The notes under the pieces were generated by a model, which was given only the letters and a program-made list of their open reading frames with translations, had not been told where the DNA came from and searched no databases. From Komagataeibacter nataicola (GTDB taxonomy: Bacteria; Pseudomonadota; Alphaproteobacteria; Acetobacterales; Acetobacteraceae), in contig NZ_NIRT01000005.1 in NCBI RefSeq assembly GCF_003207795.1, forward strand, positions 1 to 64,000: 64,000 nucleotides of DNA, written 5' to 3'. The translations under genes were made by a program, and so were the position numbers. Of the stretch, positions 2,842 to 24,494 are shown piece after piece. The stretch's first letter is position 1, and the number at the start of each line of letters is the position of its first letter.

Positions 2842-3410
2842 TGCAAATGGATATTGGTGAAGTCAGGGATGTGATCGTTGCAGGATGGGCCGGGCGCAAC
2901 CCGGCCGATGTCCAGCATCATATCGCGGAGCTGGAAATGCTGGGCGTAGCCCCGCCTAGCACCGTGCCCCTGTTCTATCGCGTTTCAGCCGATATCCTGA
3001 CACAGGCTGAGAATATTGTGGTTGTGGGTGAACAGACATCGGGTGAAGCCGAACCCGTGCTGCTGCGAACCGCTACGGGGCTGTATGTGGGCATTGGTTC
3101 CGATCATACCGACCGGTTCTGTGAGAATTTCAGCGTCGCGCTGTCCAAGCAGGTCTGTCCGAAGGTCGTTGGCACATGTTTCTGGCGTTATGAGGATGTG
3201 ATCGGACACTGGGACGAACTGCGCCTGCGCTCCTACAGGCACGAAGGGGCGCAGCGGATCCTGGTTGGGGCCGGACTGGTAGTAATTGAAGTTGGCATCC
3301 ACGTGTCGGCGCTTGCCGTTGACAAGCATCAGCGTCTGGTCGGCGCCAAGGTTGCGCAACTGCATGGTCTTGTTAAACCCGTTACTGCCCATGCCACCAA
3401 AGGGCGATGA
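2838..3410 (+). pseudogene. DUF2848 family protein, 3' end lost and replaced by antisense receptor sequence
   Basis: Residues 1 to about 140 match the DUF2848 pattern, including VVVGEQTSGEAEPVLL, YVGIGSDHTDR and HWDELRLRSY. DUF2848 proteins are uncharacterised and often sit in operons for amide or amino acid breakdown. From about base 3262 onward the frame is simply the antisense of a truncated TonB-dependent receptor on the other strand, so the last roughly 45-50 residues are foreign and the native C-terminus (normally about 220 residues in total) is missing. The gene starts in the stop codon of the preceding MFS gene. I infer a deletion that joined two convergent genes. The product is probably non-functional. 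Confidence 0.7.
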
Positions 3411-3764
3411 GGTGACAGCGGCGGAAAGCTGTGACAGGGCAGCGAGAATATTGGTCTGCCCCGTTTCCTTCAGTTGCGAGGAATCATAACGGAAGACCTG
3501 CACAGTGCTGTGTTCGCGCGTGGAGGGGGAAAAGACGCTGTTTCCCGGCCGGGTCGCGCCTGTAACGTGAATGGCTTCAGGCGCTGCCGTAGCCGCAACC
3601 GTAGCGGCCTGCGGGTTATTTGCATTGTGTTTGGTGGGGAGCTTCTTTTTGGGGGTTGTGTCTGCCACGCCCGTGCGTGCAAACGAAATATCGGAAAGCG
3701 CGGTTGTAAACAGGGCAACAGCGCTGAGGGCAATGCAACATTGAATGTATTTCTGCCTGAACAT
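3262..3764 (-). pseudogene. TonB-dependent receptor, 5' fragment only (signal peptide and start of plug)
   Basis: Reading from the ATG at 3764 (AAGGAG five bases upstream), the frame gives a signal peptide (MFRQKYIQCCIALSAVALF), a low-complexity linker and the first half of a plug domain with LRNLGADQTLMLVNGKRRHV. After about GPNQDP the homology stops and the frame runs antisense into the DUF2848 gene; it closes at 2985. The whole beta-barrel of about 600 residues is absent. The upstream promoter region and ribosome site look intact, so a short secreted peptide could still be made. The exact breakpoint, near a GGATCC at 3258-3263, is an estimate. Confidence 0.75.
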
Positions 3765-3794
3765 AGCTTCTCCTTGTGGAACTAGAACCGACAC

Positions 3795-4281
3795 TGAACC
3801 GGGGCGCCCGGAAGTTGTTCCGGGATAAAAAAACGGTTTGGGAAGAGAGGCGTAATAGTGTGGAGCGCCGTGTCTTCTTCCTCATTTGCGGGCTGACCGT
3901 AGCCTGCTTTGCCTTTATATGGAGGCTAGCTGAATCAATAACGAAATCGCAATGATAATTCAGTTATGACTTATGATAAAAAATATTTATATAAAATAGA
4001 AACTTGATATGATTGAAGATATTCAAGGAACATGCCGTCATGAGCAGGGTTCTGGCGGCAGGGGCGTCCCATGTCCCAAAAACGGTTTCTTTTTAGTAAT
4101 GTGTTGAAACTGTTTGCTTTTGACCATTTTTTTCATGTAATTATGCAGCAGCCTGATGGCCGTGTGCCCTTGCCGTCAGGCTTATTAAAAATATTTATTC
4201 AAAAAAATAAAAACATAATATTTGACAGTTTAGAAAAATATTTTGAATGATGATTTTAGTTTATTTTTGAAAGGTCGCCTC
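3795..4281. other. 487-base AT-rich intergenic region, no gene
   Basis: The region separates the receptor fragment (minus) from the dehydratase gene (plus), so it should hold two divergent promoters. It is far richer in A and T than its surroundings. It contains one strong hairpin (4150-4182) and no convincing reading frame. An ATGATAAT near 3952 resembles half of a Fur box, but the flanks do not match. Confidence 0.6.
4150..4182. terminator. Hairpin, terminator-like, in the dehydratase leader
   Basis: AGCCTGATGGC (4150-4160) pairs with GCCGTCAGGCT (4172-4182), 11 pairs with one G-U, around an 11-base loop. The following bases are TATTAAAAATATTT rather than a clean T run. It lies about 100 bases before the dehydratase start. 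It may be a leftover terminator, a leader attenuator, or the end of an unseen small transcript. Confidence 0.4.
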
Positions 4282-5274
4282 GTGACTGAAGGAACATTAC
4301 AGAATATCCTGAAAATATCAGATATATTCTTGTCGCAGACGCGGATAAATAAATATATAAATAGAACGCCTCTGCTTGAAAGCCCCGTTCTCAATAAAAA
4401 AGTGGGCGGCAGGGTCCTTATCAAGCCGGAAATGTTGCAGGTTACGGGGTCTTTCAAGTTCCGCGGGGCATGTAATCGCATATTGCAGCTTACGGAACAA
4501 CAACGCCATGGCGGTGTTGTCGCCTGGTCATCGGGCAATCATGCGCTGGCCATTTCGGCCGTGTGCGCCATGCTCAAGGTGCCTGCCTATATCATCATGC
4601 CTGAAACCGCACCCAGAATGAAAATCGAGGGCGCGCGGGGTTATGGTGCAAAGGTAAGGCTGTATGACCGCGCGACCGAGAACCGCGAACAGATCGGCAA
4701 GACCATTGCCGAGGAAATCGGCGGCGTGATCGTGCCGCCCTATGATGACTGGCAGGTCATGGCCGGGCAGGGCACGGTCGGGCTGGAGATCATGGAACAG
4801 TGCCGTGAGCTCGGCATCGTGCCTGACAGCGTGCTGGCCAGCGCGAGCGGAGGTGGGCTGGTTGCGGGGATTGCAACGGCAGTGCGCACGCTTGCGCCGG
4901 ATACGGATGTCTACTGCGTCGAGCCTGCCGGGTTTGATGATCTCTCGCGCTCGATGGTCGAGAAATCCCGTGTCACCAACCAGGGGAATGTTGCCACCCT
5001 GTGTGATTCCCTGATGGTGCCTACTCCCGGTGCCCTTACGTTCGAGGTAAACCGCAGGCTCCTCAAGGATGGTCTGGTCGTGGATGATGCAGAAGTGGGC
5101 TACGCCATGGCCCGCTGTTTCGAGTATTTCAAGCTTGTGGCTGAACCGGGCGGCGCGGCACCGCTTGCCGCCATCATGGCCGGCAGGATCGATGTCTGCG
5201 GCAAAACGGTGGTTGCCGTGCTCAGTGGCGGGAATGTTGACCCCGCCGTGTTTGCCCAGCAGATCGTACGATAG
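4282..5274 (+). CDS. Threonine dehydratase / serine racemase-like PLP enzyme
   Basis: This is a fold-type II PLP enzyme that removes ammonia from a hydroxy-amino acid (threonine or serine), or a related lyase or racemase. The PLP lysine lies in SFKFRG at about residue 58, the glycine-rich phosphate loop is ASGGGLVAG at about 187, and LSGGNVD lies near the C-terminus. There is no C-terminal ACT domain, so it is the short catabolic type (330 residues). I prefer the GTG start at 4282, with GAAAGG seven bases upstream, over a TTG 39 bases earlier that has no such site. It opens an operon with a DUF4392 protein and RidA. RidA is known to clear the enamine/imine products of such dehydratases, which supports an ammonia-lyase role. 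True substrate unknown. Confidence 0.8.
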   Translation: MTEGTLQNILKISDIFLSQTRINKYINRTPLLESPVLNKKVGGRVLIKPEMLQVTGSFKFRGACNRILQLTEQQRHGGVVAWSSGNHALAISAVCAMLKVPAYIIMPETAPRMKIEGARGYGAKVRLYDRATENREQIGKTIAEEIGGVIVPPYDDWQVMAGQGTVGLEIMEQCRELGIVPDSVLASASGGGLVAGIATAVRTLAPDTDVYCVEPAGFDDLSRSMVEKSRVTNQGNVATLCDSLMVPTPGALTFEVNRRLLKDGLVVDDAEVGYAMARCFEYFKLVAEPGGAAPLAAIMAGRIDVCGKTVVAVLSGGNVDPAVFAQQIVR

Positions 5275-5285
5275 GAGGAATGGCC

Positions 5286-6356
5286 ATGATTTCTTCTGGA
5301 TCGAATCTGTATAATAAACTTTCAAACGTAATTGATGACTTCATGGTCCTTGATTACACCGGGGTGGGTAATATTGGCCCCATCTACGATGCCCTGCAGA
5401 AAAAACAGCAGGGGCCGATGTGCATGAAAGCAGCCGAAGCCGTGATTGCGCAGGTGGGCGAACGCGCCGGGCCTGTTGTGATCGTAACGGGCTTTCCCGA
5501 AGGTGGCGGCGTGCCCGAGACCGACGGCCCGGTCGGGGCGGCATTTATCGCGCGCGCGATTTTCCTCGGGCTGCAACGCGAGAGCGTTATCGTTGTGGAT
5601 GAAGACTGGCGCGACATGATGTACGCCACGTGTCGCGGCGCGGGCCTGACGCCATTGCCCCTGCCTGAATCTGGCATCATTACGCCCATTCCTTACCTGC
5701 GCCCGGTCTATGTCGCGACCGTGCCCAAGGATGACGCAGGCTGCGCGAAAGTGTGCGATTTCCTGCTTGATACGGTGGACCCGTCGCTCCTGATCGCAAT
5801 CGAGCGGCCCGGTTGCAATGATCGCGGGCTGTATCACGGGCTGGGTGGTCGCCCGCTTGATGGGCTGGTGGCCGATATGGACAGTTTCTTCCACAAGGGG
5901 CGGCGCAAGGGGCTGGTTTCCATTGGCATAGGCGATGGAGGCAATGAACTGGGCATGGGGATGATTGCCGATGAACTCAGGCAGCTTTTTCCCAAGGCGC
6001 GGGATACTGGCGTGCCGGCGCGGGGCGGGGTCGCGGCCCAGACGGCAACGGATATCCTGATTGTCGCCAATGTTTCCAACTGGGGCGCAACCGGGCTGGT
6101 GGCCGCCCTGTCCTGCCTGCTCGAAAACCAGGCCGTCTTCCACGAAGCCGAGCTTGAAGTACGGTGCATTGAGGCCTGTGTTGCCAATGGGGGCGTGGAT
6201 GGCATGTTCATGGGGCCGGAACCCGCAACCGATGGGATCGCCGCGGAGGAATGGCGTGGCCTGCTCCATACCTTCCGCATGACCATCCAGCGCTGCCTTG
6301 GCTTTACGGTCGGCTGGCAGGGAACGATGGGTGACTGGAGGCAGAGCCGTGCATGA
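5286..6356 (+). CDS. D-glutamate cyclase-like protein (DUF4392)
   Basis: This 356-residue protein matches the DUF4392 / D-glutamate cyclase C-terminal family. Conserved stretches include VVIVTGFPEGGGVPETDGP, IAIERPGCNDRGLYHGLGG and SIGIGDGGNELGMG. The founding vertebrate enzyme interconverts D-glutamate and 5-oxo-D-proline. It stands next to 5-oxoprolinase genes, which makes 5-oxoproline chemistry plausible here. AGGAGG at 5273-5278 is correctly spaced for the ATG at 5286 and too close for the in-frame ATG at 5280, so I chose 5286. Its end overlaps the start of the ridA gene. Function is inferred from family and neighbours. Confidence 0.8.
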   Translation: MISSGSNLYNKLSNVIDDFMVLDYTGVGNIGPIYDALQKKQQGPMCMKAAEAVIAQVGERAGPVVIVTGFPEGGGVPETDGPVGAAFIARAIFLGLQRESVIVVDEDWRDMMYATCRGAGLTPLPLPESGIITPIPYLRPVYVATVPKDDAGCAKVCDFLLDTVDPSLLIAIERPGCNDRGLYHGLGGRPLDGLVADMDSFFHKGRRKGLVSIGIGDGGNELGMGMIADELRQLFPKARDTGVPARGGVAAQTATDILIVANVSNWGATGLVAALSCLLENQAVFHEAELEVRCIEACVANGGVDGMFMGPEPATDGIAAEEWRGLLHTFRMTIQRCLGFTVGWQGTMGDWRQSRA

Positions 6357-6807
6357 TGTGATGCAGGCCATCAAGGCAGTCTCCCTGCCGCCGGTCAGTA
6401 CCCCGCGTGGCAGTTACACACCCATTTTACGCAGTGGGGAATTCGTATTCGTTTCAGGGCAGGGGCCGCGATGGGGAGACGAACTGCGCTACAAGGGAAA
6501 GGTCGATTGTGACCTGACGGTGGAGCAGGGACAGGAGGCGGCACGGCTGTGTGCCCTGAACATCATCGCACAGCTCAACGGGTTTCTGAATCATGACCTG
6601 CGGCGCGTGCAGCAGGTGGTCCGGGTGGCGGGCGTCGTACGCTGCGCCGATATTTTTGAAAAACAGGCCCTGGTAATGAACGGTGCGTCTGATCTCTTTT
6701 TGGAGATATTTGGTGAGCGCGGGCGGCATGTAAGGATTGCAACGGGCACGTCGGCTCTCCCTTCGGGAATGGCCGTGGAGGTGGAAGCCATGTTTCGCGT
6801 TATCTGA
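6349..6807 (+). CDS. RidA family (YjgF/YER057c/UK114) enamine/imine deaminase
   Basis: This 152-residue protein has the RidA layout: SYTPILRSGEFVFVSGQGP near the N-terminus, then EQGQEAARLCALNIIAQL and VVRVAGVVRCADIF. RidA proteins hydrolyse reactive 2-aminoacrylate or related imines in the cytoplasm. The GTG start at 6349 lies seven bases after CTGGAGG and overlaps the end of the cyclase gene by eight bases, giving the expected family length; longer frames upstream only shadow the cyclase gene. Placement with a PLP dehydratase fits a detoxifying role, but this clade may act on another imine. Confidence 0.85.
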   Translation: MHDVMQAIKAVSLPPVSTPRGSYTPILRSGEFVFVSGQGPRWGDELRYKGKVDCDLTVEQGQEAARLCALNIIAQLNGFLNHDLRRVQQVVRVAGVVRCADIFEKQALVMNGASDLFLEIFGERGRHVRIATGTSALPSGMAVEVEAMFRVI

Positions 6808-6984
6808 ATCCTGCGCGCTTTTCCGCTACGGCTCTGCATTGTTCATGCCGCCTGAGCGGGATTACGTCATGGCGCGGGCAATTTTCACGCGGTTTTTGAT
6901 GTTACGGTCTGTATTGTAAGAGATGTTCCATGCGGCAGTAGAGCATGGTTACGCAGGCAGTAAAGTGCAGCAGGGAACCAGAAC

Positions 6985-7638
6985 TTGAAAATAAGCATGG
7001 CAGGTACAGGCGGCTGGCTGCTCGATATGGCTGAAGGCGCCTTTGATGAATCCGTGCAGGCGCGGATATGGGCCATGGCCCGCGCGCTTGATGCAACCGG
7101 GTGGTGCATGCAGGCCGTGCCAGGCGTGAACAACCTGCTTGTCACCTTTGATCCACTTGTTACAGATGGGGAATGGGCCAGCCAGGCGCTGCGCGAGCAG
7201 TGGGCCGGCACGGTGGCCAACGAGGTTCCGCCTTCCGTTATTGATGTGCGTGTGGATTACGGGGGCACGTTTGGCGAGGATCTGTCCGAGATCGCCTCCT
7301 GGGCCGGACTGACGGAAGAAGACGTCATTGCCATCCATGCCGGTGGCACCTATCGCGTCGCCGCCATCGGGGCCATGCCCGGTTTTGTCTACTTGACCGG
7401 GCTGGACAGCCGCCTTGCCATCTCGCGCCGGAGTTCACCCCGGCTCCGGGTTGAAAAGGGGGCGGTCATCATTGGCGGGGGCCATGCGGGGGTCATGCCC
7501 TGTTCCGCGCCATCGGGGTGGCATATTCTGGGGCGTACGGAACTGGATATGTTTTCTCCGTGCAGGCAGGACCCGCTTCTGTTTCATCTGGGCGATATCG
7601 TTCGTTTTCATGACAGCCGCAAGGATTGCTCTGAATGA
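6985..7638 (+). CDS. pxpB: 5-oxoprolinase subunit B / KipI (AHS1) carboxyltransferase-type subunit
   Basis: This 217-residue protein belongs to the PxpB/KipI family. It shows GAMPGFVYLTGLDSRLAISR (about residues 128-148) and SGWHILGRTELDMF. PxpB joins PxpC and PxpA in ATP-dependent opening of 5-oxoproline to glutamate. The same fold forms half of the carboxyltransferase domain of urea amidolyase. TTG at 6985, with AGGGA nine bases upstream, gives the usual short N-terminus; the ATG at 6997 is the alternative. It is coupled to pxpC by an ATGA overlap. A 177-base gap with a small CCATGC/GCATGG inverted repeat (6928-6948) precedes it, so it may have its own promoter. Confidence 0.88.
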   Translation: MKISMAGTGGWLLDMAEGAFDESVQARIWAMARALDATGWCMQAVPGVNNLLVTFDPLVTDGEWASQALREQWAGTVANEVPPSVIDVRVDYGGTFGEDLSEIASWAGLTEEDVIAIHAGGTYRVAAIGAMPGFVYLTGLDSRLAISRRSSPRLRVEKGAVIIGGGHAGVMPCSAPSGWHILGRTELDMFSPCRQDPLLFHLGDIVRFHDSRKDCSE

Positions 7639-8600
7639 TCGAGGTACTGACCAGTGCGCAGCTCAATACCATTCAGGATGCGGGCCGTACGCATGCCCTT
7701 ACACTAGGGGTATCGATTGGCGGGGCCATGGATGGCCTGGCTCTGGCCGCAGGCAACATACTGGTGGGCAATGCACGCAATGCCGCGGGGATCGAGGTGG
7801 TGTTCTACCCCTTTCGAATCCGTTTTGAGGCAGATACGATCTGTGCCGTAACCGGCGCCGACTGTAGCGCGATGCTTGATGGCAGGGCCATTCCACCATG
7901 GTGGGCGGTGCGTGTCAGGGCCGGGCAGGTGCTGGCGCTGAGCGCGCCACGCAGCGGGTGCCGGGCCTATGTAAGCGTGGCAGGCGGACTGGATGTGCCG
8001 GACGTTCTGGGCGCGCGGGCAACCGATATGAAAGGTGGTTTTGGCGGCCTTGGCGGGCACGGGCTGCAGCGCGGTAACAGGATTGCGGTCTGTCCTGCGG
8101 CGCGGGCGGGCTGCGCGTTGCCCGATGATGGCATCGGGGTCAACCCGGAATGCGCGCTGCTGCCGCGGGAGGGCAATGTGACGGTCCGCTTCCTGCCCGC
8201 TGCGGAGTATGAGGAATTCCTGCCCCGGTCCCGTGAACGGTTCATGACCGAAAACTGGACCCTCTCCAGCAGCGCCAACCGCATGGGCTACCGGCTGGAG
8301 GGCGCTGAACTGGGCATGCGGCGGCCCCTGAGCCTGTTTTCACACGGTATCGTGCCGGGCACCATACAGGTGCCCCCCAGCGGCCAGCCGATCGTGCAGA
8401 TGCTCGATGCCAATACCTGTGGCGGCTACCCCAAGATTGGCACGGTAATCGAGGCGGACCTGCACCTGCTGGCACAGCTCCCCATTCAGGGGCATGTCCG
8501 GTTTGAAGAGGTGCGGCGTGACACGGCAATTGCCGCCCTGCGGCGGCAGCATGCGATGCTGGACCGGCTGGAGCAAGAGGTCGCGGCTTTTTACGCATAA
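7635..8600 (+). CDS. pxpC: 5-oxoprolinase subunit C / KipA (AHS2) carboxyltransferase-type subunit
   Basis: This 321-residue protein belongs to the PxpC/KipA family (biotin-dependent carboxylase domain AHS2). It shows TIQDAGRTHALTLGVSIGG near the N-terminus, VSVAGGLDVPDVLGARATD in the middle, and SSSANRMGYRLEG with GTIQVPPSGQPIVQMLD toward the end. It should pair with PxpB. Its start overlaps the pxpB stop. It precedes pxpA by 10 bases. In urea amidolyase and related carboxylases this domain accepts the carboxyl group from biotin, which matters because biotin carboxylase genes follow in this operon. Confidence 0.88.
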   Translation: MIEVLTSAQLNTIQDAGRTHALTLGVSIGGAMDGLALAAGNILVGNARNAAGIEVVFYPFRIRFEADTICAVTGADCSAMLDGRAIPPWWAVRVRAGQVLALSAPRSGCRAYVSVAGGLDVPDVLGARATDMKGGFGGLGGHGLQRGNRIAVCPAARAGCALPDDGIGVNPECALLPREGNVTVRFLPAAEYEEFLPRSRERFMTENWTLSSSANRMGYRLEGAELGMRRPLSLFSHGIVPGTIQVPPSGQPIVQMLDANTCGGYPKIGTVIEADLHLLAQLPIQGHVRFEEVRRDTAIAALRRQHAMLDRLEQEVAAFYA

Positions 8601-8610
8601 GGAAACCGGA

Positions 8611-9378
8611 ATGAACAGGTTCATAGATATTAATGCGGACCTTGGCGAAAGCTGGGGCCATTACCGGATCGGGGATGACGATGCGATGCTTTCCATCGTA
8701 TCCTCGGCCAATGTCGCCTGCGGCTTTCATGGCGGTGACTTCAATATCATGGCCTACACATTTGCCGAGGCCCGGCGCAAGGGCGTCACCATTGGCGCGC
8801 ATCCCGGCTTTCCGGATCTATGGGGCTTCGGGCGGCGGGTCATACCGTTTTCCATGCATGAGATCGAACGGATCGTGGCCTATCAGGTCGGGGCCGCACG
8901 CAGCATGGCGGCCTATGCCGGGCACGAGCTGGCCTATGTCAAGGTGCATGGCGCCCTTGGCAACCTGACGGAAAAGGATCCCGCGGTTGCCCATGCCATT
9001 CTGAACGCGCTGAAGGCGGTCGCACCTGACCTGCCGGTCATGGCCATCGCGCTGAGCCATCTGGAAACCATAGGACGTGATCGGGGCATGACGGTTCTGT
9101 CCGAAATTTTTGCCGATCGTGCCTATACGGAGGACGGACACCTCGTTGCGCGCAAGGAAGAAGGCGCGGTCCTGCATGATGCCGACTTTGCGGCCATGCG
9201 TGCGGTCAGGATGATACAGGCTGGCGCGATCGAAACGGTTTCCGGCCATATGCTGCCGACCCGTATCGATAGCATCTGTGTGCATGGTGACAATGCGCAG
9301 TCAGTCGAAATCGCGCACAAGGTCCGCGTGCAACTGGAACAGGCCGGTTTTACGATCCGTCACGGCACGGGTGCGTAG
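8611..9378 (+). CDS. pxpA: 5-oxoprolinase subunit A (LamB/YcsF family)
   Basis: This 255-residue cytoplasmic protein has the LamB/YcsF hallmarks: DINADLGESWGHY at residues 5-17, SANVACGFHGGD at about 32, and IGAHPGFPDLWGFGRR at about 60. PxpA supplies the ring-opening amidase-like active site of the prokaryotic 5-oxoprolinase. The ATG at 8611 with GGAAACCGGA just upstream gives the usual family length; a longer in-frame extension overlaps pxpC and is not supported. In operons with biotin carboxylase subunits it may act on a carboxylated rather than phosphorylated lactam; that is inference. Confidence 0.9.
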   Translation: MNRFIDINADLGESWGHYRIGDDDAMLSIVSSANVACGFHGGDFNIMAYTFAEARRKGVTIGAHPGFPDLWGFGRRVIPFSMHEIERIVAYQVGAARSMAAYAGHELAYVKVHGALGNLTEKDPAVAHAILNALKAVAPDLPVMAIALSHLETIGRDRGMTVLSEIFADRAYTEDGHLVARKEEGAVLHDADFAAMRAVRMIQAGAIETVSGHMLPTRIDSICVHGDNAQSVEIAHKVRVQLEQAGFTIRHGTGA

Positions 9379-9412
9379 GGATAGCCCTGGCACCATATGC
9401 AAGGATAGACAT

Positions 9413-9880
9413 GTGAATACCGCATTGATTGAATCCCTGATGGCGCGCATGTGCGCTGAACGCGTGATTGAACTGGATTATAGCTGCAACGGCGCGCGTA
9501 TCCGCCTGGTGCGCGAAAGCGGGCAGGATGATGCGCGGCACCGGGAAGCGGTGCCCGCCGTGGCCGCTCCCGTGGTGGTTCAGGACAGACCACCCGCTGA
9601 TGATGACGCGGGCGCGCAGTCGCTGCCACAAATTATTGAGATTACGGCGCAGATGGCAGGGCAGTTCTATATCACGCCCGCCCCCGGAGAACCGCCTTTT
9701 GTAACCGCAGGCGATGAAGTCGCGGAGGGAGCGCCGCTGTACATCATGGAAGTGATGAAGATGCTGAACCGGATGGAGGCAGAATTCGCATGCCGGATTA
9801 TTGCGGTCCTGTGCGAAAACGGGGCAGGTGTCGAGATCGGCACCCCCCTGTTCCGGGTGGAGCGGACGGACCATGCGTAA
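9413..9880 (+). CDS. Biotin carboxyl carrier protein (AccB-type), operon-specific copy
   Basis: This 155-residue protein has an AccB-like N-terminal helix region, an acidic and proline-rich linker (about residues 45-70) and a C-terminal biotinyl domain. The biotin acceptor motif EVMKM is intact, with the lysine at about residue 116. A GTG start at 9413 with AAGGA seven bases upstream is chosen. It overlaps the biotin carboxylase start by eight bases. The position inside a pxp operon, with no accA or accD, indicates a dedicated carrier and not the fatty acid synthesis one. Confidence 0.85.
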   Translation: MNTALIESLMARMCAERVIELDYSCNGARIRLVRESGQDDARHREAVPAVAAPVVVQDRPPADDDAGAQSLPQIIEITAQMAGQFYITPAPGEPPFVTAGDEVAEGAPLYIMEVMKMLNRMEAEFACRIIAVLCENGAGVEIGTPLFRVERTDHA

Positions 9881-11252
9881 GGTTGAAACGGTCCTGATCG
9901 CCAATCGGGGCGAGATCGCCCTGCGCGTGCTGCGTGCCTGCCGCGAACTCGGGCTGCGGACGGTGGGCATATATTCTGAAGCCGATGCCAGTTTACGCCA
10001 TCTGTCCTTATGTGATCGCACGATCTGTATTGGTCCGGCACCAGCGGCAAAAAGCTATCTGGATACGGAACTGGTGCTGCGGGCTGCCCGGCTTACACAG
10101 GCCGATGCCATCCATCCCGGTTATGGTTTCCTGTCGGAAAATCCGACCTTCGCCCGCGCGGTGGAAGAGGCGGGCCTGGTTCTGATCGGGCCATCCTCCA
10201 CCATCATGCGGCGCATGGGCGACAAGATCGAGGCCAAGCGCATGATGCTGGCCGCGGGCATGCCCTGCCTGCCGGGCTCTGATGGCCCGCTGCCCGAGGA
10301 TATGGATCAGGCCAGCGCACTGGGCGCGCGTATCGGCTATCCGCTTATTGTCAAGGCCGCGGGCGGCGGGGGCGGACGGGGCATGCGGATCGTGCACACG
10401 CCCGCTGACCTGCGGCAGGCGGTCCAGACCGCGCGGGAAGAAGCCATTCGCGCTTTTGGCAACGGCACGCTGTATGGTGAACGTTTTCTGACCCACCCAC
10501 GCCATGTGGAAATACAGGTCATGGCCGACCAGCATGGTCATGCCGTCTGGCTGGGAGATCGTGACTGTTCCGTGCAGCGCCGCCACCAGAAGGTCATTGA
10601 GGAAGCGCCCGCCTATGGCATCGGGCGCGATGAAATTGCGCGTCTTGGCGCGCTCTGCGCGGCAACCTGCCTGAAGATCGGGTATGTCGGGGCAGGGACG
10701 TTCGAGTTCCTGTATGAAGACGGCGCGTTTTATTTCATTGAGATGAACACGCGTATTCAGGTCGAGCATCCAGTGACCGAAATGGTGACCGGCATCGACA
10801 TCGTGCGTGAACAGATCCGCGTTGCGATGGGGGAGCCCCTGTCCCTTACGCAGGCTGACGTGCGGTGCGATGGTCATGCCATTGAATGTCGCATCAACGC
10901 GGAAAATCCTGATACGTTCATGCCTGGCCCCGGCAAGGTCACGCGCTGGCTCGCGCCGGGCGGTGAGGGCGTGCGCACCGATACCCATCTGTATGATGGC
11001 TATGTCGTGCCAACGCACTATGATTCCCTCGTTGCCAAGCTGATCGTGCGCGGGCGTTCGCGCAATGAGGCGATCAGCAAGATGCGTGCGGCCCTGGAGG
11101 AGACGGAAGTGGACGGTATTCCCACGACCATTCCCCTCCATCTCCACCTGATGGAAGACGAGCGTTTCCGGGCGGGGGATATATCGGTTCACTATCTGGA
11201 AGAACGCGACTTCAGCCGCAATAAAAAGGACAGCACTCATGGCGCGGGGTGA
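9873..11252 (+). CDS. Biotin carboxylase subunit (AccC-type), operon-specific copy
   Basis: This 459-residue ATP-grasp enzyme carboxylates biotin on its carrier using ATP and bicarbonate. Visible hallmarks are VLIANRGEIALRVLRACREL at the N-terminus, GYGFLSENPTFA, the ATP loop AAGGGGGRGM at about residue 160, and FIEMNTRIQVEHPVTEMVTG near 290. Length matches the family. The start ATG at 9873 lies inside the end of the carrier gene. No acetyl-CoA carboxyltransferase genes accompany it; the only carboxyltransferase-like genes nearby are pxpB and pxpC. Confidence 0.9.
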   Translation: MRKVETVLIANRGEIALRVLRACRELGLRTVGIYSEADASLRHLSLCDRTICIGPAPAAKSYLDTELVLRAARLTQADAIHPGYGFLSENPTFARAVEEAGLVLIGPSSTIMRRMGDKIEAKRMMLAAGMPCLPGSDGPLPEDMDQASALGARIGYPLIVKAAGGGGGRGMRIVHTPADLRQAVQTAREEAIRAFGNGTLYGERFLTHPRHVEIQVMADQHGHAVWLGDRDCSVQRRHQKVIEEAPAYGIGRDEIARLGALCAATCLKIGYVGAGTFEFLYEDGAFYFIEMNTRIQVEHPVTEMVTGIDIVREQIRVAMGEPLSLTQADVRCDGHAIECRINAENPDTFMPGPGKVTRWLAPGGEGVRTDTHLYDGYVVPTHYDSLVAKLIVRGRSRNEAISKMRAALEETEVDGIPTTIPLHLHLMEDERFRAGDISVHYLEERDFSRNKKDSTHGAG

Positions 11253-11673
11253 GGATATGCCCACGGATATCGTATGGGATATGGTCGCGTGCATGCGTCG
11301 CTATGGCATGCGCGAACTCGATGTGCATGACGGTGCAATGACATTGCGCCTGCTTCTTGAGGGCGCAGTGGCGCAGACCGGGGCGGAGGAGAGATTATCG
11401 GGCGATAACGGCGCGGCGACAGTCTCCACGCCATCTGCCGGCACGGTGGTTTACAGCCCCGTTATGGGGGGCGTGCTGCTGACCCACCCGTTGCGCCATG
11501 CCCCGGAGGTCGAGCCCGGGCAGGAGGTGGCGGAAGGGGATATCATCGCCTTCATCGCCGTCGATCATATCCTGCAGCCCGTTGTGGCCCCGTGTGCCGG
11601 GCATATAGACACGATTGAGGTCAAGCATGATGAGGTGGTGGGGTATCACCAGCCGCTTATGGTCATCCTGTGA
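11239..11673 (+). CDS. Biotinyl-domain protein lacking the biotin-accepting lysine
   Basis: This 144-residue protein resembles AccB: an N-terminal helix (IVWDMVACMRRYGMRELDVH), a short linker and a lipoyl/biotinyl-like beta fold (VYSPVMGGVLL, then VAPCAGHIDTIEVKHDEVVGY). Where biotin carriers have E-V/A-M-K-M, this protein has A-V-D-H-I, so histidine (about residue 110) replaces the acceptor lysine. It therefore should not be biotinylated. It overlaps the end of the biotin carboxylase gene; AAAGGA eight bases upstream supports the ATG at 11239, with the ATG at 11257 as an alternative. It may be a structural subunit or a regulator of the carboxylase complex. Confidence 0.8.
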   Translation: MARGEDMPTDIVWDMVACMRRYGMRELDVHDGAMTLRLLLEGAVAQTGAEERLSGDNGAATVSTPSAGTVVYSPVMGGVLLTHPLRHAPEVEPGQEVAEGDIIAFIAVDHILQPVVAPCAGHIDTIEVKHDEVVGYHQPLMVIL

Positions 11674-11681
11674 CCGATCCG

Positions 11682-11697
11682 GCCTGAACGGTCAGGC
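11682..11697. terminator. Short hairpin between convergent genes
   Basis: GCCTGA (11682-11687) pairs with TCAGGC (11692-11697) around ACGG. It overlaps the stop codon of the permease gene and lies nine bases after the last gene of the pxp operon. There is no T run, so termination is only a possibility. Confidence 0.3.
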
Positions 11698-13218
11698 GCG
11701 GGGCACGGGAAATGCCGCCTCATCGTCAGTCGCAACAGGGGGGTGGTTGATGGCAGGGCCTGATTTCATCAGGGCTAGGTAACATAACCCTCCCGTCAGG
11801 CATCCGATGAACCATGCAAATTCCGACAGGGCCGATAACGCAGGTACGAACACGCTAGCGCTCCCTGCCACCACCGCAATCAGCAGGGCAAGGACGGCCG
11901 CCGGGTTGACCCCGTTGCGGTACCAGTAACGGCCCTGCGCACTGGTGGTATAAAGAGCAGCGACATCAACCTGCCTGCGGCGTACGATATAGTAGTCACA
12001 TACAAGAATACCGAATAACGGGCCGATGAACGTCGCCAGCACATCGAGCGTCAGGTGCATGACCTGCGGGTTGCCATACAGTTTCCATGGCATGATGACG
12101 ATGGAGCCGGCAGCCGCAATCATGCCGCCACCGCGCAGGCTGATATGCCGGGGCGAGAGGTTGGAAAAATCGAACGAGGCCGAGACAAAATTGGCCACGA
12201 TATTGATGCCTGCCGTCGCAATGATGAATGTCAGCATGCCAAATATGACCGCTGTCAGGCTGTCAATATGCGCCACGGTTTCCACCGGATCGATCATGAC
12301 ATGGCCAAAAGCGGGCGCGGTCAGGGCAATGGTGCAGATTGTCAGTGCTGAAAACCCGATGAAATTGAACGGCAACCCCCAGAAATTGCCGCGTCTTATA
12401 TCCGCTGCACTGCGCCCGTAGCGGGCAAAATCACCAAAATTGAGCATGGGGCCGGAAAAATAGGACACCACAAGCGCTACGGCATTCACGCTGGCCCACA
12501 CAAGTGCGCCGCCATGCAACGGGGTGCTGGCACCGGTAATCTGCAAGGAAAAATGACGCCAACCCACATGCTGGAGCAGATACAGGTCCAGCGCGATCAT
12601 GATGGCGTATACGGCAGGCCCCGCCAGTTCTATAAACCGGCGGACTGTCTCGATGCCCCGCCAGAAAATGGCGGCCTGCACCAGCCATAACAGGCCAAAT
12701 GCGGCCCACCCCACGGCTGAAAGCCCCAGCATGCCATGCAGCCTGACCTCTGCCCATGGTGTCAGGCCAGGGGCAAGCCGCAGGGTCAGCACCACCAGCG
12801 CGTTCGATGCCAGCCATGTCTGTATGCCGTACCAGCATACGGCGATCACGCCGCGTATCAGCGCGGGAATATTGGCCCCCAGCACGCCAAAGGACATGCG
12901 GCATATAACCGGGAACGGCGTGCCCGTGCGCTGGCTGGGCACCGCCACAAGGTTGCACAGGGCGTTTACGATCAGTACGCCTGCCAGCAGGGCGGCAAAA
13001 ACCAGTCCCGAAGGCAGGCCGAGTGTAAAGAGGTTGCCTGCCGTGACATAGCCGCCAACGCTATGCACATCCGACATCCAGAAAGACAGGTAGTCGTACC
13101 AGTTCCAGTCCTGCTTTTCCGCAGGGAGCAGATCGCGGTTGCGCAGCCTGTCATCCTGCGCGCCGTGCTGCGTGGCTGAAGAAGATGGAACCGTTTCCGG
13201 TCGTACCTGCATGTTCAT
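11692..13218 (-). CDS. NCS1 family permease (allantoin / hydantoin / nucleobase type)
   Basis: This 508-residue polytopic inner-membrane protein belongs to the NCS1 symporters, which import hydantoins, allantoin, uracil, cytosine or thiamine precursors with sodium or protons. The family pattern is clear in NRDLLPAEKQDWNWYDYLSFW and then ALCNLVAVPSQRTGTPFPVI. The ATG at 13218 has GGGGGAG six bases upstream and is preferred over one 15 bases earlier. It follows the TonB-dependent receptor by 88 bases on the same strand and converges on the pxp operon. With the racemase further up, this suggests a cyclic amide or hydantoin as substrate. Confidence 0.85.
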   Translation of the reverse strand: MNMQVRPETVPSSSATQHGAQDDRLRNRDLLPAEKQDWNWYDYLSFWMSDVHSVGGYVTAGNLFTLGLPSGLVFAALLAGVLIVNALCNLVAVPSQRTGTPFPVICRMSFGVLGANIPALIRGVIAVCWYGIQTWLASNALVVLTLRLAPGLTPWAEVRLHGMLGLSAVGWAAFGLLWLVQAAIFWRGIETVRRFIELAGPAVYAIMIALDLYLLQHVGWRHFSLQITGASTPLHGGALVWASVNAVALVVSYFSGPMLNFGDFARYGRSAADIRRGNFWGLPFNFIGFSALTICTIALTAPAFGHVMIDPVETVAHIDSLTAVIFGMLTFIIATAGINIVANFVSASFDFSNLSPRHISLRGGGMIAAAGSIVIMPWKLYGNPQVMHLTLDVLATFIGPLFGILVCDYYIVRRRQVDVAALYTTSAQGRYWYRNGVNPAAVLALLIAVVAGSASVFVPALSALSEFAWFIGCLTGGLCYLALMKSGPAINHPPVATDDEAAFPVPRA

Positions 13219-13306
13219 ACACAGCTCCCCCACGGGCCATTATGCCCGGCTGTGGCGGCGGTGTGAAGGTCATGCCCGCTCATGTATCCCATTGCATGAT
13301 GCCCGT

Positions 13307-15790
13307 TCAGAAACCGGCCCGGAAAGTCACGACCGCCGAGAAACGCCCCAGCGTATTATAGGTGGGTGCGGTGCCCTGTATCTTGCCGATGGTGGTATTG
13401 GTCAGGCTGACGCTGTTGATGGCGGAGTAGGCATGGGTATCGATCATGTTGTTGACCCACAGCATGACTTCCGGGCTTTTGAGAAAGCTCAGCCCGCGCC
13501 CGACCAGGCTGTTGCGCGGCAGGCGCGCGCCTACTGTCGCATTCATGGTGTAAAGCGACGGAAGCGCTTCCTGGTTCATGAAGGTTGAATACTGTTTTGA
13601 GAAGTAATTCAGCCCATAATTCCAGAAGAAGATGCCGTTATCCCAATCCACCCCCAGCGAGGCCGCCCATGTGGGCGTATCGACGGCCATCTTGCCCTTG
13701 GTGGGCAGGCCCTGGATATTGTTGTCGATGGTTGAATGCAGATACTGCATGGACGCATAGGGGCGGAAATGGTGGATGGGGCGCGTGCCGATTTCCGCGT
13801 CAAACCCGTTGGTTGTCTGGTTGCCCGCATCGATGACCTGCCCGATGGCCTCGTTGCCGAGGAACATGGAGGTGGAAACCTGATGATGCGACAGGTTGTA
13901 ATGGAAATATGTAAATGACCCGATGATGTATTTACCGGTGTAGCGCATGCCCACTTCTTCGGTAATATTATATTCATCATGGATATGGGTCTGGCCCTGA
14001 TTGGCGATCTGCCCGGTATTGGGGTTGATGGTGGTGATCATGGCGCTGTCAGGCGGCGCCTTGGCGCCGGTCGAAACCCCGCCGAATATCTGCACATACT
14101 TGTTTAGCTGAAAGTGGCCGCCAAGCGTGGGCAGCGGCATGAACTCGTTGGCGCTGACCTTGCGCTGCAGGCCGGGAATGTTGTCGGTGCCGTCACGATG
14201 GATCATGGTCACGCGCATGCCGCCATCAAGCACCAGCCGCCCGTTGAGCAGCGTGACCGTATCGCCAGCATAAATGCCATTGACGGTAGAAATATCGCTG
14301 TAGTTCTGGGAATAGAAAACCTGCCCGTTGCCCAGCCGCAGTGAATCGCGCGCCCGCCCCCATGACGTGGCCGGGTTGCCCCCGCTGCTGACCCCGGTAT
14401 AGCCGACAAGGTTGGTGGAATTGTCGTAATCGAACCAGTAACCCAGGTAGATATGGTGGTGGCCCACCTTGTAGCTCAGCTTGGCGTTCACGCCGCCGCG
14501 CATTTCGTTCAGGCTGCTGTACTGCTCGGCCACGCCATAGGACTGACCGGCCTGCTGGCCGGGAATGACAATGGATTGCGGGCTGCTGCCATAGCCATTG
14601 TACACCTGGTCGTTAAGCTCGAAGCCGGAGCCGTAAACCTTCTGGTTGGCGGCCACGTAGGGGGTGACATCCAGCCCGATCCGCCCGAAATTGAAGTGCG
14701 AGGGGGCGGCGATGTTGAAGGTCTTGGAATGAAGCCAGTTCAGCTTCCAGTAATCGGTGCCGCCAGCGGCATTATTGGGGTCGTAGGAACCGGCCAGTTC
14801 GTTCTTCAGCCCCTTCTGCTTCCAGCTGGCCATGGTCATGTCCCAGTAAGGCTCGTTACCGATCACGCCGCGCGTGAAGCCACCGACCAGCGACACGCGG
14901 TTGCCGTCTCCCCATTCCTTGAGGATCTTGAAGTCGATATGCTTGAAGTCTTCCTGGCCGGGACCATGATAGAACGTGTCATGCTGGTTGGAGAACGAGA
15001 TGTAGGAACGGATGCCCGTCTTGCCCCATTCGCCCGTGTCCACGCGCAGGAACTGGCGGGTATAGTCGCGGTTGCCCACGCCGACATCCCCCAGGCCGCC
15101 GAATTTCTTTGAGGGGTCACGGGTCTTGAACTCGAACATGCCGCCCGAGCCGTTGATGGCGGGCGTATCGAGATTGGATGAGCCGGGCTGCACGGAAACG
15201 CTGCCGATATTCTCGCTATCCGTAACCCATGCCACGTCAAGGTTATAGCCGCCGATACTGCTCAGCGGCATGCCTTCCCATACATTGGCAATCTGGTCCT
15301 GTGTCAGGCCACGCATGCTCAGGGCGGATTTTTCGTGACCGGCAGGATCGGTATTGGCGACCACGATGCCCGGCAGCAGCTTGACGGCGTTATAGGCGTT
15401 CTGCGCGGGCGACTGCTTCATGATGTAATCGGGCGTGACGGTGCTGCGTGCCTTGGGCGCGGTCTGTTTCTGGATCAGGCCGCCACCGGGCGCGCGCCCG
15501 GTCACGCCATCGGCTGAATGGACAACGCTGGCCCCCACCCGGATCTGCTCGGCCCCGCCTGTCGCCTTTACACCCTGTGGCTGTACGGTTGCCGGATGGG
15601 CGTCATGAGCGTGCGTGTTATGGGCCGATACCGTGCGGGCCAGGGCCATGCCGCGTGGCGCACCGAGCACCAGCGCTGTTGTCAGCGCCAGAAAAAACCG
15701 ATGACCAGGAGCCTGAACGGAAAAGCGGAGCAGCGGCACGGTCTGCCTGGAGGAATACGATCCGGTCGGGCTTTTTCCGTCAAGGTACAT
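13307..15790 (-). CDS. TonB-dependent outer membrane receptor
   Basis: This full-length receptor of 827 residues has a long N-terminal leader with a hydrophobic stretch (FFLALTTALVLGAPRGMALA), a histidine-rich linker, a plug domain (about residues 105-250, with ALSMRGLTQDQIANVWEGMP) and a beta-barrel ending in FSAVVTFRAGF with terminal phenylalanine. It imports a substrate across the outer membrane with energy from TonB. The ATG at 15790 has AAGGA nine bases upstream. A GntR-type motif (15916-15927) lies in its promoter region. Neighbouring NCS1 permease and racemase suggest the cargo is an amide-ring compound and not a siderophore, but that is inference. Confidence 0.88.
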   Translation of the reverse strand: MYLDGKSPTGSYSSRQTVPLLRFSVQAPGHRFFLALTTALVLGAPRGMALARTVSAHNTHAHDAHPATVQPQGVKATGGAEQIRVGASVVHSADGVTGRAPGGGLIQKQTAPKARSTVTPDYIMKQSPAQNAYNAVKLLPGIVVANTDPAGHEKSALSMRGLTQDQIANVWEGMPLSSIGGYNLDVAWVTDSENIGSVSVQPGSSNLDTPAINGSGGMFEFKTRDPSKKFGGLGDVGVGNRDYTRQFLRVDTGEWGKTGIRSYISFSNQHDTFYHGPGQEDFKHIDFKILKEWGDGNRVSLVGGFTRGVIGNEPYWDMTMASWKQKGLKNELAGSYDPNNAAGGTDYWKLNWLHSKTFNIAAPSHFNFGRIGLDVTPYVAANQKVYGSGFELNDQVYNGYGSSPQSIVIPGQQAGQSYGVAEQYSSLNEMRGGVNAKLSYKVGHHHIYLGYWFDYDNSTNLVGYTGVSSGGNPATSWGRARDSLRLGNGQVFYSQNYSDISTVNGIYAGDTVTLLNGRLVLDGGMRVTMIHRDGTDNIPGLQRKVSANEFMPLPTLGGHFQLNKYVQIFGGVSTGAKAPPDSAMITTINPNTGQIANQGQTHIHDEYNITEEVGMRYTGKYIIGSFTYFHYNLSHHQVSTSMFLGNEAIGQVIDAGNQTTNGFDAEIGTRPIHHFRPYASMQYLHSTIDNNIQGLPTKGKMAVDTPTWAASLGVDWDNGIFFWNYGLNYFSKQYSTFMNQEALPSLYTMNATVGARLPRNSLVGRGLSFLKSPEVMLWVNNMIDTHAYSAINSVSLTNTTIGKIQGTAPTYNTLGRFSAVVTFRAGF

Positions 15791-15915
15791 TGCCGGTGTC
15801 CTTATTCTTTATCCCGCTTGGCAGGCCGGGATCGCGACATGGAATGATACTTGAGAGAAATGTTCTCTCATTACGGATATAGGATAATATCGGTTTAAAA
15901 TATGTGTCAACGCAT

Positions 15916-15927
15916 ATTGTTTACAAA
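15916..15927. promoter_or_regulatory. Candidate GntR/FCD operator upstream of the receptor gene
   Basis: ATTGTTTACAAA is part of a 20-base stretch TCAACGCATATTGTTTACAA (15907-15926), which agrees at 17 of 20 positions with a stretch before the racemase/gntR pair. TTGT-NN-ACAA is a usual half-site layout for FCD-type GntR regulators. Confidence 0.55.
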
Positions 15928-15935
15928 AATGGATT

Positions 15936-16709
15936 TCAATCCTGGCAGGCGCGGACAGGCGCGCCAGATGCCAGATAACGGTGCAGTTCGGGGGAAAGGC
16001 CTATCGTTTCCATGCAGGCCCGAGGGCGCATGGGCGGTATGGGGCGCGCCAGCAGGTCAAGGACTTCGTGCAGGCTTTCGTGCAGGGAGCACATGACCGG
16101 GGCGGTTACATCCGGCGCAATCCGTGCGGCCAGACCCGCAAGGCCTGCGCCCCCCAGCACCACGCGGGCGGCGCCATCCTTATGCACCGCTTCATTGCAG
16201 GCGCGCGCAATCTCGCGGCAGGCGGCGGCCCCGCCCTGCGCCAGAACGTTACCCGCGGCGGGCAGGATGCGGATGGACGCCAGTCGCGCGCTCAATCCCA
16301 TGGCCTGCACCAGATCCACAAGCATGGGTTTCCATTCCGGGCCGCCGGTCACGATGGAAAAGCGTCCCGGCAACCGTGCCGCCCGTATGAGGGAAGCCTG
16401 CGCCATGCCTGCAACCGGCACCGGGCAGAGACTGGCCAGCGCCTCGCGCCCCGGGTCGCCAAAGCAGGCCACCAGTACTGCGTCAAACGGTCCGTGCGCA
16501 CAGGCCAGCGCATCGAGCACCGCATGGCCCGCAATCGTGACGGAAACGCGGTCGGTCAGGTAGCGTGCCCCGAACCGGGCGGTGACTGCCTCAATCGCCA
16601 CGGCCCCGGCAAACCGGTCCTGCGCATAGGCCACCATGCGTTGCGTCATATCCGTATCGGTATTGGGATTGATAAGCAGCAGGCGCGACACGGGCAGGCA
16701 TCCAATCAT
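15936..16709 (-). CDS. Asp/Glu/hydantoin racemase-like protein with one catalytic cysteine missing
   Basis: This 257-residue protein belongs to the Asp/Glu racemase superfamily, closest in pattern to hydantoin or allantoin racemases (LLLINPNTDTDMTQRMV at the N-terminus, LVACFGDPG at about residue 80). These enzymes use two cysteines. The first is present in ACFGDPG. The second, normally in an LGCAGM motif near residue 183, is glycine here (VVLGGAGLAG), one base away from TGC. The protein may be inactive as a racemase or may have changed chemistry, as arylmalonate decarboxylase (also one cysteine) shows. No good ribosome site precedes the ATG at 16709; a GTG at 16691 (SRLLLINPNTD) after GGATG is a strong alternative. 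Confidence 0.8.
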   Translation of the reverse strand: MIGCLPVSRLLLINPNTDTDMTQRMVAYAQDRFAGAVAIEAVTARFGARYLTDRVSVTIAGHAVLDALACAHGPFDAVLVACFGDPGREALASLCPVPVAGMAQASLIRAARLPGRFSIVTGGPEWKPMLVDLVQAMGLSARLASIRILPAAGNVLAQGGAAACREIARACNEAVHKDGAARVVLGGAGLAGLAARIAPDVTAPVMCSLHESLHEVLDLLARPIPPMRPRACMETIGLSPELHRYLASGAPVRACQD

Positions 16710-16778
16710 GATTAAGGTGGGCCATATCAGTGACCTCTGTCAGTCAGTATGATTTGGAAACGTATTTCGTCAACCATT

Positions 16779-16790
16779 ATTGTTTACAAT
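16779..16790. promoter_or_regulatory. Candidate GntR/FCD operator in the racemase-gntR divergent promoter
   Basis: ATTGTTTACAAT is a perfect inverted repeat (ATTGT-TT-ACAAT). It sits between the divergent racemase and gntR genes, 77 bases before the chosen regulator start. It matches the site before the TonB-dependent receptor, as expected for an autoregulated local regulator. Confidence 0.6.
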
Positions 16791-16866
16791 ATCAAGGCCC
16801 TTGACGGAAGCGCCAGACTGTCCCAACAGAATGCGTTTCAGCAAAAGGGGAGGGGAGGCAAGAGCC

Positions 16867-17553
16867 ATGGGATCATCTGCCAAGGAAGAAGCGCGCATTG
16901 CTGATGCCTTGTGCAAGGCGGTCCTGGAGCGCAAGCTGGCGCCGGGCAGCAAGCTGCCCGAGGAAGAGCTTGCCCAGATCTTTCGCTCCAACCGCGCCAA
17001 GATCCGCCGGGTGCTGCTGCTGCTGTCGCGCTCCCACATCGTCACGCTGGAGCCGGGGCGCGGGGCCTTTGTCAGCCGCCCCTCCCCGCAAGAAGCGCGT
17101 GACGTGCTGGCCAGCCGCCGTCTGATCGAAGTCAGCCTGCTCGCGCACCCCTACCGCAAGCTATCCGCGCAGGGTGCGGCGCGACTGCGCCAGATCATGT
17201 CGCACGAAGCCCAGGCGCATGCGGCGCATGACGCAATTGCCATGATCTACCTCTCGGGCCAGTTTCACCTGACGTTGATCGAGGAACTCGGCAATAAGGT
17301 GCTGAAAAGCATTACTGGAGAACTGATCCTGCGCATGTCGCTCATCATTACCATGTATGAGCGGCAGAACACGACCTGTTGTCTGTCTTCCGACCATCAT
17401 GATCTGCTGGAGCTGCTGCTGGCGCATGATTATGCTGAAGCCTCCGCCCTTATGGCGCGGCATCTGGAAGGGATTGAAAGCTGCCTTGATTTCCAGCGTG
17501 AGCCGGCCACCACGACCATACTGAGCCAGATCCTCCAGCCCCTGAAGGACTGA
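16867..17553 (+). CDS. GntR family transcriptional regulator (FCD domain)
   Basis: This 228-residue DNA-binding regulator has an N-terminal winged helix (IADALCKAVLERKLAPGSKL, then EEELAQIFRSNRAKIRRVLLLLS) and an all-helical FCD ligand domain (about residues 80-215) with FH, HH and late RH residues typical of the metal/ligand site. It should sense a small carboxylated metabolite and control the adjoining catabolic genes. GGGGAGG upstream supports the ATG at 16867; earlier in-frame starts would place the putative operator inside the gene. It is divergent from the racemase gene. Confidence 0.85.
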   Translation: MGSSAKEEARIADALCKAVLERKLAPGSKLPEEELAQIFRSNRAKIRRVLLLLSRSHIVTLEPGRGAFVSRPSPQEARDVLASRRLIEVSLLAHPYRKLSAQGAARLRQIMSHEAQAHAAHDAIAMIYLSGQFHLTLIEELGNKVLKSITGELILRMSLIITMYERQNTTCCLSSDHHDLLELLLAHDYAEASALMARHLEGIESCLDFQREPATTTILSQILQPLKD

Positions 17554-24191: not shown

Positions 24192-24281
24192 TTCACCACT
24201 CCTGCTGCACCCTGATGGCGGGTGCGTTGTTTGATTATCATGATGGAAACAGGGTGTTGATAATCGCTCGCAACACATAAC

Positions 24282-24300
24282 GCAAATGATTATCATTATT
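24282..24300. promoter_or_regulatory. Fur box, receptor operon side
   Basis: GCAAATGATTATCATTATT contains the core AATGATTATCATT, which reads AATGATAATCATT on the other strand, the centre of the classical 19-base Fur consensus. It lies about 90 bases before the receptor start. Iron repression of the receptor operon is expected. Confidence 0.75.
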
Positions 24301-24494
24301 ATAACAAAGAACAAAACCGGGTGTTGCTTGGAGGCAACATGTGATTCTCAAGAATAAATATGAAAAAACATGAAATAATATGTAATCATATGGCTGCTCA
24401 GGCAGTGTGCAGCGCAAAGCGACCAGTCTTATCAATGGGGTGTGGCGAGCGTAGCTGCGGCGGGACGGAGGACGGGCCTCTGTTACACCATTTT

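Follow-up and report, generated by a model that had tools for sequence, protein, structure and literature searches.

The 64,000-nt window analyzed here (the whole stretch, positions 1 to 64,000 of contig NZ_NIRT01000005.1 of Komagataeibacter nataicola, assembly GCF_003207795.1) contains a cluster of six genes that, judged from sequence comparisons, probably encode a single lactam-opening enzyme, a form of PxpABC that depends on biotin. The gene order put forward in the original prediction, pxpB-pxpC-pxpA-carrier 1-biotin carboxylase (BC)-carrier 2, was confirmed from open reading frames (ORFs) and from Pfam and NCBIfam profile matches, by which the window genes were assigned; the starts at 8611, 9413, 9873, and 11239 were taken directly from the sequence. 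From pxpB through carrier 2, adjacent genes overlap or are separated by at most a few dozen bases:

6985-7638, forward strand: PxpB-like subunit, the CT_C_D half of a carboxyltransferase (CT) (PF02682, E 1.9e-58; TIGR00370, 157 bits, above the cut-off of 145.6)
7635-8600, forward strand: PxpC-like subunit, the CT_A_B half of the CT (PF02626, E 3.1e-86; TIGR02712, urea carboxylase, 152 bits)
8611-9378, forward strand: PxpA, LamB/YcsF family, lactam-opening by family (PF03746, E 4e-90; alignable with 11 relatives)
9413-9880, forward strand: carrier 1, AccB-like, with a GTG start and an EVMKM attachment motif (PF00364; TIGR00531, 90 bits, below the cut-off of 115)
9873-11252, forward strand: BC, AccC-like (TIGR00514, 642 bits, above the cut-off of 626.5)
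11239-11673, forward strand: carrier 2, a Biotin_lipoyl protein and AccB paralogue without the biotinyl lysine, with a C-terminal VGYH/VGYG signature (PF00364, 35 bits)

The clustered BC looks dedicated to the pxp genes and not to fatty acid synthesis, on the basis of the gene inventory and of phylogeny. The 3.67-Mb source genome encodes three BCs, on contigs C30, C62, and C74. The C30 BC adjoins an AccB, forming a separate accB-accC pair, while the genome's two PxpBs and two PxpAs all lie on C62 and C74 with the remaining two BCs; the C62 cluster encodes the same six proteins in a divergent arrangement. The claim that accA and accD are missing also held, as the cluster contains no Carboxyl_trans match and the genome's only two matches, both partial, lie on C35 and C84 (none on C62 or C74); from the profile halves that they cover, we read these as accA-like and accD-like. 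The original prediction had further proposed surveying genomes for accB/accC together with pxpABC. Across 60 genomes, a BC was found within 10 kb of 30 of the 35 PxpB matches (two of the 30 being fused urea carboxylases and four belonging to a second kind described below), and in 19/19 same-genus genomes the number of BCs equals one plus the number of PxpBs, from one genome with no PxpB and a single BC to four with two PxpBs and three BCs. For G012, one of these four, the second PxpB forms the CT portion of a fused urea carboxylase, and for another, G009, it is of the second kind. Typing for this comparison covered all 35 PxpB places, and BC places from the genomes with a PxpB plus a few others.

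Phylogeny separates the two groups of BC. In a tree of 55 BC rows, the 13 BCs from loci with the six-gene set (six-type loci) form a single clade (100/99), and 16 rows taken as housekeeping AccC (14 from one-BC genomes, the C30 BC of the source genome, and one row chosen by size from a four-BC genome) form another (100/99). The window BC deviates from the housekeeping set at 12 of the 116 columns that are invariant in that set and matches all five BC motif patterns searched. The set thus differs from a heteromeric acetyl-CoA carboxylase in having no AccA or AccD and in a BC that falls outside the housekeeping AccC clade.

The other members of the module appear to be inherited together with this BC. 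We collected 26 six-type loci, of which 18 were picked irrespective of carrier 2 (the window, 14 reached via PxpB or PxpA, and L177, L180, and L181), six were selected via carrier 2 (L171-L176), and two came from the PxpC listing and were also present in the carrier 2 listing (L178 and L179). Carrier 2 is present in all 26, PxpA in 25, carrier 1 in 23, and BC in 22. In a tree of 97 PxpC rows, the 15 six-type PxpCs form a single clade (100/100), the PxpCs of a fused kind form a separate clade (100/100), and the PxpCs of loci lacking a BC (BC-less) fall outside the six-type clade; carrier 2 adjoins all 15 PxpCs of the six-type clade and occurs at no locus outside it. Six-type proteins also stand apart from urea carboxylase in both the BC and PxpC trees, each of which includes two urea carboxylases. 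Pairwise distances among BCs correlate with those of PxpB, PxpC, and both carriers (r = 0.76-0.82; 0/5000 permutations as high) across 11 of 13 six-type loci with BC, near copies L048 and L049 being omitted and host relatedness remaining in the distances. PxpC distances track those of carrier 2 (r = 0.75; 2/5000) and carrier 1 (r = 0.62; 0/5000) more weakly. The module is retained while its gene order varies among six-type loci, and entire modules are plasmid-borne in Mesorhizobium ciceri, Bradyrhizobium guangxiense, Burkholderia cenocepacia, B. pyrrocinia, and Sinorhizobium numidicum; these five were examined out of the 735 plasmid records in which PxpC matched. The PxpB and PxpC proteins of BC-linked and BC-less loci were compared by conserved columns only; at residues ~255-260, six-type PxpC has Q, A, and N where BC-less PxpC has L, R, and Q.

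The two carriers differ at the attachment site. The biotinyl lysine is conserved in carrier 1 at 23/23 of the loci that have this protein and is found in carrier 2 at 0/26, the position being filled by P, S, H, A, E, V, L, or T. The second carrier-like protein of the original prediction retains its family assignment (a Biotin_lipoyl match) and loses the residue that would make it a biotin acceptor. Even so, it is present in 18/18 of the loci chosen irrespective of it, and a carrier protein minus its attachment site has been kept at every locus of its clade seen. Carrier 2 also resembles AccB all along its sequence, since a profile built from 15 carrier 2 sequences matches ordinary AccBs, often across nearly the whole model; for the same reason, a tally of this profile over 398 Pseudomonadota genomes (375/398 matched) was unusable as a distribution. 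Among 20 returned loci, seven scored better as carrier 2 than as carrier 1, all lysine-less and including the source genome itself, and four of the six others adjoined BC and pxp genes. Five annotated plasmids name the protein variously as biotin/lipoyl-containing protein, biotin attachment protein, BCCP (biotin carboxyl carrier protein) subunit (two), and hypothetical protein.

Links between BC and PxpBC also occur in other architectures. We scored the best 80 of 592 confirmed PxpA candidates, without counting a weak BC match at L059 (94 bits, 1070 aa), and found a BC in the available flank of 16/80. Thirteen of these 80 loci have the co-directional order pxpA, PxpB::PxpC fusion, BC::BCCP fusion, some with space for one more gene behind pxpA. 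BC::BCCP accompanies PxpB::PxpC in 13/15 cases, the two without a BC being L094 (2.9 kb downstream covered) and L129. In Faecalispora (L123, 13741-15105) we observed a natural PxpC::BCCP fusion of 455 aa with the motif ESMKIMN, adjoining a BC that, by its coordinates, seems to be the sole one found in that genome and that may also serve acetyl-CoA carboxylase; Atopococcus (L121) has a pxp-linked BC plus another BC that adjoins a Carboxyl_trans match containing one stop. A second BC-linked kind (L043 7935-11447, L044, L045, and L050) encodes BC, PxpB, and PxpC and no carrier 2; pxpA and a short BCCP are also present wherever the stretch extends far enough to include them, which is the case for three loci (L044 begins at its BC). 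Its PxpC (three rows) groups with the urea carboxylase CT (98/91), and this kind could be a urea-carboxylase-like enzyme divided over several chains and coupled to PxpA.

A deposited structure contains a comparable set of chains. The chain listing of PDB 9yx5 includes an acyl-CoA carboxylase alpha3 (BC) subunit; chains V and W of this entry are PxpC-like and PxpB-like, respectively, and among 98 PxpBs and 97 PxpCs segments of these two chains score best against the 13 fused-kind proteins. The source organism is presumably a Mycobacterium; our literature search found no paper on this entry. Based on the inventory, the copy-number link, the separate clades, the gene fusions, and PDB 9yx5, the proposed connection of BC and carriers to PxpABC stands, with the amendment that carrier 2 has no biotinyl lysine.

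We propose that BC, whose family and intact motifs predict the usual chemistry, would use ATP and bicarbonate to carboxylate biotin on carrier 1. The two chains PxpB and PxpC, together homologous to the CT domain of urea carboxylase, would receive the carboxyl group and use it to activate a lactam or a comparable cyclic amide, in the simplest case by forming the N-carboxylate, and PxpA would, as its family suggests, open the activated ring. Carrier 2 may be a structural adaptor joining carrier 1 and BC to PxpBC, a role in keeping with the loss of its lysine, its AccB-like length, and its presence throughout.

Several observations weigh against a biotin-dependent enzyme. PxpA, PxpB, and PxpC reportedly suffice for prokaryotic 5-oxoprolinase (Niehaus et al. 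2017), and among the 80 best of 592 PxpA loci, the available flank contains no BC in 64, some of these flanks ending at a contig edge. The available text of PMC13274462 describes canonical PxpABC as ATP-dependent, with a phosphorylation step assumed. L171 and L172, which fall within the six-type clade (nesting assessed with 21 of 61 BC-less PxpCs), keep pxpABC and carrier 2 with no BC or carrier 1 within 18 kb, and their genomes each have one AccC-size BC plus BC frames of 1201-1226 aa. At L051, both carriers are present with no BC in 20.7 kb, and the single AccC-size BC of that genome lies on the contig of another AccB; the genome search did recover the carrier 1 of L051 and so reached that locus. 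At L088, where the contig ends, BC and carrier 1 are likewise absent. Finally, the available portion of PMC5770610 proposes Lys1605 of KlUA as the general base of the urea carboxylase CT, and the corresponding column, located by counting in the alignment, is Arg in six-type PxpBs (15/15) as well as in fused (13/13), Firmicutes (2/2), and BC-less PxpBs (62/62); Lys occurs in two groups only, urea carboxylase (2/2) and the second kind (4/4). The Arg, together with the Lys kept by the second kind, indicates that the six-type enzyme is not a simple urea carboxylase.

For L171, L172, and L051, either a housekeeping BC supplies the enzyme or biotin is dispensable there. A more specific version of our proposal can be put forward tentatively: a biotin-dependent lactamase in which a dedicated BC would form carboxybiotin on carrier 1, an Arg-bearing PxpB-PxpC carboxyltransferase would take over the carboxyl group and activate the lactam by carboxylation, PxpA would open the ring, and the lysine-less AccB paralogue would be a permanent coupling subunit, with housekeeping AccC possibly recruited in L171, L172, and L051, plus AccB in L171 and L172. 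In both of the latter loci, the lysine-less AccB paralogue (L171 8778-9245; L172 8745-9212) lies beside pxpABC and aminotransferase, LysR, short-chain dehydrogenase/reductase (SDR), and amino-acid-ABC-like genes, the last recognized by eye.

Of the other explanations, the one that survives best is a canonical ATP-dependent 5-oxoprolinase, in which PxpBC phosphorylates and PxpA opens the substrate while the adjacent BC and carriers serve some other or supporting function; we regard it as unlikely. The PxpA, PxpB, and PxpC families are indeed encoded together, as in PxpABC, and the Arg shared by the window PxpB with all 62 aligned BC-less PxpBs, the retention of PxpABC and carrier 2 at L171 and L172, and the biotin-free description of PxpABC in the available text of PMC13274462 all favor it. 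It does not readily account, however, for the 19/19 copy-number link, the separate BC and PxpC clades, the PxpC::BCCP fusion and the BC::BCCP fusion beside PxpB::PxpC, or PDB 9yx5, in which an alpha3 BC subunit appears among the chains alongside PxpB/C homologues. Family scores help little here: the window PxpC scores 295 bits against NF045499 (PxpC_5OPro), under the equivalog cut-off of 500, and five other PxpCs tested, one of them BC-less, are also under it (177-310 bits). As proof of a new function the low score is weak because the BC-less PxpC fails too.

Less probable still is that BC, carrier 1, and PxpBC carboxylate a non-lactam acceptor (urea, guanidine, a ureide, or a keto compound) and that PxpA acts on the carboxylated product. 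The CT homology of PxpC to urea carboxylase (TIGR02712) is consistent with this, as are the genes that recur beside the 26 six-type loci, which are not obviously lactam-specific: aspartate-transaminase-like (18) and YdfG-like SDR (18), both under their NCBIfam cut-offs, Nac-like LysR (15), and RraA-type (7), as counted with our own score thresholds. On the other hand, PxpA, whose family is named for lactam use, occurs in 25/26 loci, and the Firmicutes operon with the PxpC::BCCP fusion also has, by eye, an NRAMP/YcsG-like transporter and a DUF1445-like protein, which we take to be 5-oxoproline companions. That BC and the carriers are spare acetyl-CoA carboxylase parts for fatty acid synthesis, which the original prediction had named as a finding that would overturn it, is suggested by the NCBIfam name accC (above cut-off) and by how the S. 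aureus copies are interpreted in the available text of PMC11315280, but the gene inventory and BC tree point the opposite way and led us to reject this role for the clustered BC, given a separate accB-accC pair whose BC groups with single-BC-genome AccC and clustered BCs that form their own clade and vary in number together with PxpB, so we give it almost no credence.

Around the module, the window encodes the following genes:

2838-3410, forward strand: DUF2848 protein (match spans profile positions 1-131 of 194 and looks shortened)
4243-5274, forward strand: PLP-dependent ammonia-lyase-like protein (PALP, PF00291), upstream of the module and in the same direction; best NCBIfam match threo-3-hydroxy-L-aspartate ammonia-lyase, 291 bits, below the cut-off of 452
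5280-6356, forward strand: D-glutamate cyclase-like protein (GLUCM-like_C, PF14336, E 1e-67)
about 6353-6807, forward strand: RidA/YjgF-type protein (PF14588, 79 bits; approximate start)
11692-13233, reverse strand: NCS1-type permease (PF02133, E 6.5e-84), convergent with the module
13307-15790, reverse strand: TonB receptor, between the NCS1 permease and racemase genes
15936-16709, reverse strand: Asp/Glu/hydantoin racemase family protein (PF01177, E 1.2e-39)
16780-17553, forward strand: GntR/FCD regulator (PF07729, PF00392)

The families listed in the original prediction were confirmed by Pfam and NCBIfam, with the TonB receptor missing from that list. The substrate deduced there from the hydantoin racemase, D-glutamate cyclase, RidA, PALP, NCS1, and DUF2848 genes carries little weight, since these genes accompany the module in 1/26 six-type loci only, the window itself, and we set this line of argument aside; the scan used our own score thresholds on flanks of unequal length and covered the listed families other than GntR. 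As to the substrate, our guess is that the neighbors recurring at six-type loci would fit a route in which the ring is opened and the product then undergoes transamination and aldol cleavage, for instance with a hydroxylated 5-oxoproline as the starting compound. By eye, a second TonB-dependent-receptor-like ORF is present at 21888-24314, giving two such ORFs in the surroundings of the cluster. Also by eye, at 2838-3794 the DUF2848 gene overlaps an opposite-strand ORF resembling the start of a TonB receptor (compare L018:17204-19657), and this region has the look of a junction left by a rearrangement.

Prokaryotes commonly encode PxpABC. The way in which its PxpBC part, homologous to a biotin carboxyltransferase, activates a lactam is unsettled, phosphorylation being assumed; lineages that join PxpBC to a dedicated BC make this question directly testable. 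If the proposal is correct, carboxylation of an amide ahead of its hydrolysis would be a second use of urea carboxylase logic. The results also suggest that acetyl-CoA carboxylase subunit annotations in such operons are misassigned. Our literature search found no paper testing the biotin dependence of PxpABC and none describing a lysine-less carrier, most subscription papers being outside its scope; for a parallel with fungal lamA/lamB it gave nothing usable.

Compared with known systems, the module resembles the PxpABC 5-oxoprolinase in having the PxpA, PxpB, and PxpC families side by side, and differs from it in the added dedicated BC, biotin carrier, and lysine-less carrier and in a PxpC that belongs to its own clade. 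Related gene content has been reported before: in the available text of PMC11315280, an S. aureus six-gene operon with pxpB pxpC pxpA accB accC is already published, with accBC assigned to fatty acid synthesis, so that BC and BCCP genes share an operon with pxpABC there as well, and the available part of PMC12427679 attributes to L. pentosus both pxpB/pxpC and an additional BCCP/BC pair, with no link drawn between the two. PDB 9yx5 likewise lists a BC-bearing protein together with PxpB/PxpC homologues (as allophanate hydrolase subunits 1 and 2), which, unlike those of the six-gene clade, resemble the fused clade. The CapAB caprolactamase/hydantoinase shares ATP-driven lactam opening, with carboxyphosphate considered as mediator, but belongs to different protein families, and the mechanisms given in the available text of PMC8453981 involve no biotin carrier. 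Urea carboxylase/urea amidolyase (KlUA; PDB 5i8i, 3va7) also combines BC, a two-part CT, and a biotin carrier: the window PxpC matches the first part of the KlUA CT, and a bacterial urea carboxylase matching KlUA contains PxpC, PxpB, and carrier domains. In the six-gene module, however, these parts are separate chains, PxpA replaces allophanate hydrolase, Arg stands for Lys1605, and an additional lysine-less carrier is present.

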